Assembly: GCA_964017145.1 (NCBI GenBank)
Contig: OZ024844.1
Span: 1,550,001 to 1,614,000 of the forward strand
Length of the DNA stretch: 64,000 bases
Direction: 5' to 3'
Source: Agrocybe praecox
Taxonomy: Eukaryota; Basidiomycota; Agaricomycetes; Agaricales; Agrocybaceae
A program made the translations under genes and the position numbers. Below the pieces are notes generated by a model that was given only the letters and a program-made list of their open reading frames with translations, was not told the DNA's origin and made no database searches. Shown one piece after another: positions 31,809 to 33,019 of the stretch; within the stretch, counting starts at the first letter, position 1, and each line of letters starts with the position of its first letter.

Positions 31809-32427
31809 CTAATCTACTAATTCTTCTTCTGCAGAATTTTCCTCATTACGCTTCTTCGCCTTGTTCTTTGCTTTCTTCCTCCGTCGTCGTTCACGTTCAC
31901 GTTGTTTTGCTGCCTTTAAATTTTCTTTCGATAGTCCAGGGTTGACCAGCTCATCAAGCTGAGTAACAATAAGACATAAACGTTAACCTCCCGGCAGAAC
32001 ATAGACAGAAAACACGAAACACGCCTTCTCAAGCAACCACTTTCGAGCTAACTTCCTGTTCTGTGAAAGAGAGCGAGTATCCTGACAAGAAACCCGAAGA
32101 CCTGTCGGCTTATGAAGCAATTGCACATTGTTTTCAGTTTTATTGACTGATTGACCGCCCTTGACATGGACATTACTTGAAATAAATCGAATTTAGAGTC
32201 TAACCGTGAACCTACCGGCCCACTACCTGGTGACAGTATTTGAATACAACATTAAAACGCAGAAGGGATCGCACAAAAACATACCTCGCACAAATTTCTC
32301 CTCAAGGTCCTCCTCACGCAACTCCGGCACTACCCGCTCTTTATGTGCCTTCTTCAGAGCGCTGAAATATCTCGGAGGATTTGAGGAGCCTTCGGGTTTA
32401 ACTGGAACAGCATCTAGTGACGGAGAA
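31809..32427 (-). CDS. RF-1 domain protein (Rso55/MTRFR-like), probably joined to MZM1
   Basis: A mitochondrial release-factor-like domain thought to rescue stalled mitoribosomes. From 32427 it reads SPSLDAVPVKPEG, then PELREEDLEEKFVRGSGPGGQSVNKTENN, carrying the GGQ peptidyl-hydrolase motif, then a conserved helix RSLSQNRKLARKWLLEKLDE and a Lys/Arg-rich tail, typical of C12orf65/Rso55 proteins. Stop at 31809-31811. Oddities: GSGP is encoded by an 11-base exon (32216-32226); the intron 31959-32024 needs a GC donor to keep the frame; and the first exon has no in-frame ATG, its frame being closed upstream by a TGA. The simplest start is splicing from the MZM1 exons through a 48-base intron (32428-32475). 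Confidence 0.75.
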
Positions 32428-32444
32428 CTGGTCAAGGTTTGTCG

Positions 32445-33019
32445 TCAATTCCTCAAATAGGAATTAACTGCGCACTTGATAGGTTGGCCGTCCTGCCGGC
32501 GCTTGCTACGACTGGATTCCATCGGCGGTGGGCTCTTAATGGAGTCGTTGTCCCCTAGCTCGGTGTGTTTTGTCATACGAATGCCTGCAAGATGTTAGTT
32601 GGCTGCAGAGCCGGTTTCCAAAGTTACCATGCTTACTATACAGTTCTTCCTCTGGGGCGGACGCCGGTACCCTCACACCCTGCACAACATTTCGTCGCAA
32701 CACGTCTGCGACATCGTGGATGAACTGTATTCTTTTCTGATACGACTCAGCGTCAGTGACTGCATCTTGTGTGATGTCTGAGCGTATTTTCGTGCGGAAG
32801 GCTGGTGGAAAAATGTCAGCTCAATTAAATATGATTATCCGACAGAGCAATGTAAAGACCTTGGAAGACTGGTTTGTCCCCTGTTATAAAATGAATAAAT
32901 TAACAAATAATTGTAACTTGTATTCAAGACACTTTACCCGAAAAGGTTACAGAGGCTGCTCGTAGGACATCACGATACGCTGAGCGGGTAGCAGCTTTAA
33001 TAGCAGGCGGGAGGGACAT
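32445..33019 (-). CDS. MZM1: MZM1-like LYR complex III assembly factor
   Basis: Mzm1 is a small matrix chaperone of the LYR family that stabilises the Rieske iron-sulfur protein during bc1 complex assembly. The start at 33017-33019 gives MSLPPAIKAATRSAYRDVLR, with the LYR-like YRD, then AASVTFSGDKPVFQAFRTKI, and FIHDVADVLRRNVVQGVRV. The last exon gives HTELGDNDSIKSPPPMESS and GQPIKC, a common Mzm1 end. If the following 48-base intron is retained, translation ends at a TGA at 32445-32447, giving about 120 residues, a normal Mzm1 size. If it is spliced out, the frame runs into the RF-1 domain gene. It is divergent from histone H1. Confidence 0.82.

Follow-up and report, generated by a model that had tools for sequence, protein, structure and literature searches.

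Two coding segments lie in tandem on the minus strand of the Agrocybe praecox window (the whole 64,000-nucleotide stretch of DNA analysed here), one encoding a protein of the Mzm1 type and the other a release-factor (RF-1) domain, and an intron carrying an in-frame stop codon stands between them. Do they constitute one gene or two, and what does this intron decide? A preliminary description of the DNA had proposed a single gene, switched by the splicing or retention of what we number intron 4, and the reading frames bear out this anatomy (Table 1). When intron 4 is kept, the segments 33019-32938, 32880-32860, 32801-32637 and 32584-32445 specify an intact 135-residue protein that ends in IKCAVNSYLRN, so that retention would indeed yield an Mzm1 of normal length with its stop inside the intron. 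The RF-1 frame (32444-32285, 32226-32216, 32159-32025 and 31958-31809) begins directly after that TGA, which closes it upstream, and is the same frame as that of Mzm1. The intron holds one in-frame stop; as its length is a multiple of three, phase is kept in either form, and removal of 32475-32428 fuses the Mzm1 codons in phase to those of RF-1, giving a stop-free frame of 271 residues that comprises Mzm1, a linker and the RF-1 domain, with the junction peptide reading ..GQPINSPSLDAV... The RF-1 exon had also been said to lack an in-frame ATG; none occurs between the TGA and the conserved PPRYFS block, where one TTG is the sole near-cognate start. For the interval 32430-32600, which had been singled out as the place where an ATG might hide, this stands downstream of the TGA and fails upstream of the intron, where the shared frame holds ATGs at 32576 and 32522, so that, formally, splicing could also yield a shortened RF-1 product lacking the Mzm1 core.

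Table 1. Proposed gene model and its features, in order of transcription; positions are those of the window.
Feature	Position	Strand	Description
Exon 1	32938..33019	-	Mzm1 start (MSLPPAIKAATRSAYRDVLRAASVTFSG), LYR-type motif AYR
Intron 1	32881..32937	-	57 nt, GTAAAG..ACAG
Exon 2	32860..32880	-	21 nt, DKPVFQ; aligns with relative P0001
Intron 2	32802..32859	-	58 nt, GTCTTT..CCAG
Exon 3	32637..32801	-	Mzm1 helices 2-3
Intron 3	32585..32636	-	52 nt, GTAAGC..GCAG
Exon 4, spliced form	32476..32584	-	Mzm1 tail (TELGDNDSIK..GQPI), ends at the split junction codon AA/T
Intron 4	32428..32475	-	48 nt, phase 2, GTGCGC..ACCAG
In-frame TGA inside intron 4	32445..32447	-	Closes the 135-residue Mzm1 when the intron is retained
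Exon 5	32285..32427	-	Linker (SPSLDAVPVKPEGSSN), PPRYFSALKKAHKER block, RF-1 domain begins
R-Y-F-S motif, candidate MPP/Icp55 cleavage site	32361..32372	-	Placed from the PPRYF start at 32378; cleavage putative
Intron 5	32227..32284	-	58 nt
Exon 6	32216..32226	-	11-nt micro-exon, GSGP ahead of GGQ
Intron 6	32160..32215	-	56 nt
Exon 7	32025..32159	-	GGQSVNKTENN, catalytic core of the RF-1 domain
Intron 7 (last)	31959..32024	-	66 nt, GC-AG
Exon 8	31809..31958	-	Basic C terminus of the RF-1 part, with the stop

The anatomy of the join is, taken alone, at the level of chance. Counting GT or GC donors, 26 joins of up to 150 nt leave the frame open, and of these 32475-32428 alone has GT-AG ends and a length within 40-90 nt; when the 112-nt stretch was shuffled 2000 times with its dinucleotides preserved, 1081 of the shuffled versions also allowed at least one such join. 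The case for a fusion thus rests on its conservation in relatives, for which a protein search with the 271-residue frame returned 659 matches. Among the best 120 of these, all 120 carry both halves in one protein with Mzm1 first (BLASTP at E <= 1e-4 against a bank of 245 fetched proteins), so the arrangement does recur in related Agaricomycetes, and the edges of the Mzm1 and RF-1 matches overlap by a few residues in P0054, P0068 and P0097. The closest is P0001 of Agrocybe pediades, at 85% identity over 88% of the query. The GGQ is kept in 117 of the 120, and in the other three (P0010, P0106 and P0107) the surrounding stretch is missing from the models. Agrocybe belongs to the Agaricales and Plicaturopsis to the Amylocorticiales; others of the listed genera we take to be members of the Polyporales, Russulales, Boletales and Gloeophyllales. 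Ranking and length window both favour fused proteins and 539 of the 659 matches fall outside the best 120, so this count is no measure of how frequent unfused genes are, and the fused database models themselves stem from gene callers prone to join frames.

The residues at the joint speak to the same question. Counted by eye in 16 close relatives, the junction residue is Asn in 12 and Lys in 2, 14 in all with AA-N codons, which is what a phase-2 intron 4 behind an exon 4 ending in AA predicts; it is ambiguous in P0006 and P0019. Where a reading continues beyond the joint (P0017, P0121, P0122, P0123, P0124, P0125, P0205 and the window), C, Y or S follows, all T-first codons such as a phase-2 donor (xx-GT) requires, an argument that is weak because the joint was placed by eye. 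In 48 of the 120 listed fusions, the stretch from the TELGxN motif of Mzm1 to the GGQ contains no Met, so an internal start is not the general route to the RF-1 half; beyond the first 22 residues of that stretch, Met is absent in 76 of the 120.

The Mzm1 half carries the pattern AYR..LR..F, in which Y15, R16, R20 and F26 are invariant across 65 aligned sequences, and Ala in place of the Leu of the LYR motif has been described for Lyrm7 in a passage of a survey of the family (PMC11293456). Pfam LYR models returned no match to the window protein at E 0.001 and none to P0001, P0025, P0120 and P0121 at E 0.5, and relative P0122 scored 15.5 bits against Complex1_LYR, for which the cut-off is 24.8; we take this model to be insensitive to the Mzm1 subfamily. 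Because Pfam missed this half, its identity rests on motif, on names (P0036, P0063 and P0107 bear the name mitochondrial zinc maintenance protein 1) and, less firmly, on predicted fold. Predicted structures comprise three helices, a low-confidence linker and an RF-1 fold. In a Foldseek search with the whole fusion, the best 50 rows held only RF-1 and C12orf65 matches, and an Mzm1-only relative was therefore modelled separately. The half shares with Mzm1/LYRM7, the Rieske chaperone of complex III, the AYR for LYR, the downstream Phe and the TELGDN tail, may also share its three-helix core as predicted, and differs in running on into a release-factor domain once intron 4 is removed. Its family suggests a putative role in Rieske binding or complex III support.

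The RF-1 half matches PF00472 at 86.3 bits and contains GSGPGGQ. Compared with solved structures, the profile of the relatives is nearest to human C12orf65 (7a5h_C, E 1.4e-29) and to 2rsm_A (2.9e-27), with RF1 next at 3.7e-16 and ArfB at about 3e-3; the half has no codon-recognition domains and is closer to C12orf65 than to RF1, RF2 or ArfB. It shares its RF-1 domain, GGQ, basic tail and want of a codon-recognition part with C12orf65/mtRF-R/Pth3, of which Pth3/Rso55 is described as the yeast homologue in a passage of PMC7940416. It differs from these proteins in that it lacks its own start codon and targeting sequence and relies on the Mzm1 half instead. By family membership, it is a putative factor for the rescue of stalled mitoribosomes. 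Three loci of the RF-1 family were found in the organism's own genome, and by their motifs we presume the other two to be of the RF1 type (C8, reading RARGAGGQ) and of the ICT1 type (C7, reading RSSGPGGQ). Searching this genome with the RF-1 half for a second C12orf65-type locus, and with Mzm1 for a second Mzm1 locus, led to the window only; as scoring was confined to the best candidates and treated each exon separately, diverged copies may have escaped it. The single locus found for each half, together with the presence of both halves in every listed relative, makes it well supported by comparison of sequences that the Mzm1-mtRF-R gene is a conserved fusion of many Agaricomycetes, and the proposal of one gene, joined in phase, stands.

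We consider it quite likely that this one gene encodes Mzm1 and a C12orf65-type rescue factor, with splicing leading to the fusion and, more tentatively, retention of intron 4 to some free Mzm1. The product would be a two-domain protein, located in the matrix to judge from the families, with an LYR-type Mzm1, a flexible linker and a rescue factor of the C12orf65/mtRF-R/Pth3 type. Removal of intron 4 would give this fusion as the conserved main product, and would be the only route to the rescue factor that starts at an ATG. Less firmly, since the donor of intron 4 is poor, some transcripts may keep the intron and yield the complete 135-residue Mzm1 that ends at the TGA, in which case the ratio between Mzm1 and the rescue factor would be set by how efficiently the intron is spliced.

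A switch with two products, in which a regulated share of the mRNAs retains intron 4 and gives free Mzm1 while the rest give the fusion, is possible but unproven, and we regard it as plausible though on balance doubtful. The donor of intron 4 pairs most weakly with U1 among the seven (-7.6, -4.1, -4.5, -2.5, -6.9, -9.0 and -3.8 kcal/mol for donors 1-7), but two others, at -3.8 and -4.1, are nearly as poor. The predicted Mzm1 helices finish well before the TGA, and C, Y or S stands behind the joint, placed by eye, in seven database readings and the window; against this, the retained tails vary in both length and sequence among the seven database readings compared and the window (KCV, KCAVNSYLRN, KYVDLYFDS and ECCST, each followed by the stop). 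In P0205 the intron reads through without a stop, so that retention would lengthen the fusion rather than end Mzm1. Moreover, 160 nt separate the TGA from the exon junction that follows it, a distance that normally invites nonsense-mediated decay (NMD), making the retained mRNA NMD-prone. Fungal precedents favour a switch: the splice isoforms of HBS1/SKI7 and PTC7 likewise give two products from one gene by a splicing choice, and were studied experimentally, as related in a passage of PMC3597508, whereas those of Mzm1-RF-1 would be predicted from sequence; intron retention is also reported as a major splicing type in Coprinopsis cinerea in part of PMC10532568.

Database readings of the RF-1 half bear on the same point. 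A query with the short RF-1 frame, which passes over most full-length fusions on account of their length, returned 340 matches, of which 120 were listed, and in 70 of those 120 open reading frames both tested RF-1 splice sites read as if joined and no Mzm1 half is present. Some of these appear to retain intron 4 although both later introns read as removed: P0134, P0146, P0153 and P0157 (and, by eye, P0127, P0128 and P0130) start with residues that the intron's 3' end appears to encode. The 70 are not a count of retained transcripts, because many begin only within the RF-1 block and some come from organisms other than agarics; against their use for a switch, the database names no RNA or DNA source for the short frames, and an open-reading-frame caller of bacterial style may trim starts. 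In Taiwanofungus camphoratus, the residues before SSTDAAL are KRQQT in P0061 and MFLFLT in P0161, consistent with a single site read once spliced and once unspliced. The Pisolithus protein P0143, 98% identical to the fused P0035, seems to enter the RF-1 half from another frame, as splicing at an alternative site might produce. Two further measures were set aside. Enrichment of the donor hexamer in the window was too sparse to rate (GTGCGC had a partner at 0 of 21 sites, and GTAAAG, another donor of the gene model, at 0 of 37), and the CCS ending of the Mzm1-only models P0121, P0122 and P0125 was rejected as a conserved retained tail, being absent from P0123, P0124, P0205 and the window.

Cleavage in the matrix is an equal alternative to the switch and need not exclude it; like the switch, we think it credible without expecting it to prevail. 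The fusion would always be made as a polyprotein imported by its Mzm1 half, and MPP and Icp55 would cut R-x-[FY]-S ahead of the S, before the RF-1 part. The relatives share a PR[YF][FY]S[AQ]LKK block in which S148 is nearly invariant, and among the 116 of the 120 listed relatives in which the block was found, Arg stands at -3 of the Ser in 82 but is missing in 34. The linker is predicted to lack a stable fold. In a part of PMC8847149, the consensus for MPP plus Icp55 is RX(F/Y/I/L) before the cut and (S/A) after it, which the block fits; Arg5,6 is there described as internally cut, and Rsm22-Cox11 as having predicted sites, so that each resembles this gene in giving two matrix proteins from one precursor with a possible internal MPP site. 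The present case differs in its partners, in that cleavage is putative, and in the stop-carrying intron that separates the halves. Rsm22 is a mitoribosome factor and Cox11 an assembly factor of a respiratory complex, and Rsm22-Cox11 likewise joins such a pair. Counting against cleavage, a SALKKAHK-like block also occurs in RF-1 proteins with no detected Mzm1 half (P0176 and P0200), so the block may be conserved for the sake of the RF-1 domain.

Other routes to two products, or to an apparent one, fit the locus less well. A bicistronic mRNA, on which Mzm1 ends at the TGA and the RF-1 frame starts anew downstream, appears improbable to us, although polycistronic mRNAs are numerous in Agaricomycetes according to a part of PMC4503453. 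A Met does stand just ahead of the RF-1 block in some relatives (P0139, P0140 and P0145), and P0132, P0150 and P0155, to judge from their residues, seem to begin at an ATG that overlaps the Mzm1 DNDSIK codons in a different frame, which suggests overlapping frames in some relatives. In the window, however, the RF-1 frame holds no ATG between the TGA and the PPRYFS block, 76 of the 120 listed fusions are without Met after the first 22 residues, and the paired frames in that part of PMC4503453 lie on average 364 nt apart with stops in all frames between, unlike the arrangement here. That gene callers merged two adjacent genes in the relatives is hardly to be expected either. A joinable intron is common enough in the shuffles for callers to join frames by accident; the identical order in all 120 listed proteins, the shared junction residues in 14 of the 16 close relatives and the want of an own start for the RF-1 half in 48 of the 120 all speak against it. 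Readthrough of the TGA would give the fusion without splicing, and the intron, being 3n long with one in-frame stop only, would permit it. The classic readthrough context has CUA after the stop; here the context is AAT TGA CGA, and in the models of close relatives the junction is the spliced one, with no intron-coded insert, so we judge readthrough extremely improbable.

The conserved fusion probably arose within the Agaricomycetes after the Cantharellales had split off, as the few species compared suggest, since RF-1 proteins of Ceratobasidium and others are without an Mzm1 half. This half went undetected in 116 of the 120 listed matches to the short RF-1 query, and the unfused proteins include those of Ceratobasidium (Cantharellales), Rhizoctonia, Serendipita (Sebacinales) and Rhodotorula. 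A looser search of 12 RF-1 proteins for Mzm1 remnants found none in 11, among them Ceratobasidium P0196 and P0202, Rhizoctonia P0208, Serendipita P0200 and Rhodotorula P0230 and P0237, and gave matches at chance level in P0182 (best E 0.11). The start of P0200 (Serendipita sp. 401; ..LEDENGKPLRLNV..) looks Mzm1-like by eye, with no BLAST match, and this protein could be a fusion whose model is damaged. A few Mzm1-only models do exist: a query with Mzm1 alone gave 5 matches among 17 candidates.

LYR proteins and rescue factors also meet elsewhere. P0244 of Anopheles christyi combines a MIEF1-MP-type LYR part (5ool_v, E 4.3e-9) with a C12orf65-type RF-1 domain (7a5h_C, E 6.8e-26), and the protein of the MIEF1 upstream open reading frame (MIEF1-MP) is itself present in the solved entry 7a5h. 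P0244 is a possible second pairing of this kind, as an independent fusion or a bicistronic gene; it is one model, and a joining artefact may explain it. A bolder reading, which we hold to be rather unlikely, is that intron 4 acts as a dial for the ratio of the two products: weak splicing would leave a large share as free Mzm1, and the rescue factor from spliced mRNA would bring its own acyl-ACP-binding LYR arm to the large mitoribosomal subunit once this has split off. P0244 and the LYR-mtACP module on the human mtRF-R-bound particle would then be parallel instances, and such a dial would tie ribosome rescue to complex III and Fe-S assembly. Fusions and extensions of LYR proteins are commonest in MIEF1-MP, Lyrm8, Lyrm7 and Lyrm4, at about 10% of sequences, according to the part of PMC11293456 that treats them; that section names no partners, and the paper's supplement may list an Mzm1-mtRF-R fusion. 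Among publications judged by title or the start of the abstract, we found no description of this fusion, and the portion of PMC4503453 that we saw mentions neither a release factor nor MZM1 among its Agaricomycetes polycistronic mRNAs.

If the conserved fusion of Mzm1 and a rescue factor is read correctly, in a large group of mushrooms the mitoribosome rescue factor would be made solely as an appendage to an assembly factor of a respiratory complex. One could then test whether rescue is coordinated with the assembly of complex III, whether splicing efficiency sets protein ratios in fungi, and why LYR proteins and mtRF-R recur together; gene models, for their part, should not assign the RF-1 half an invented start. 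By eye, the gene is flanked on the same strand, about 185 nt downstream (31624, minus), by a gene start resembling cyclase-associated protein, and upstream on the opposite strand (33504, plus) by the start of a histone-H1-like gene.
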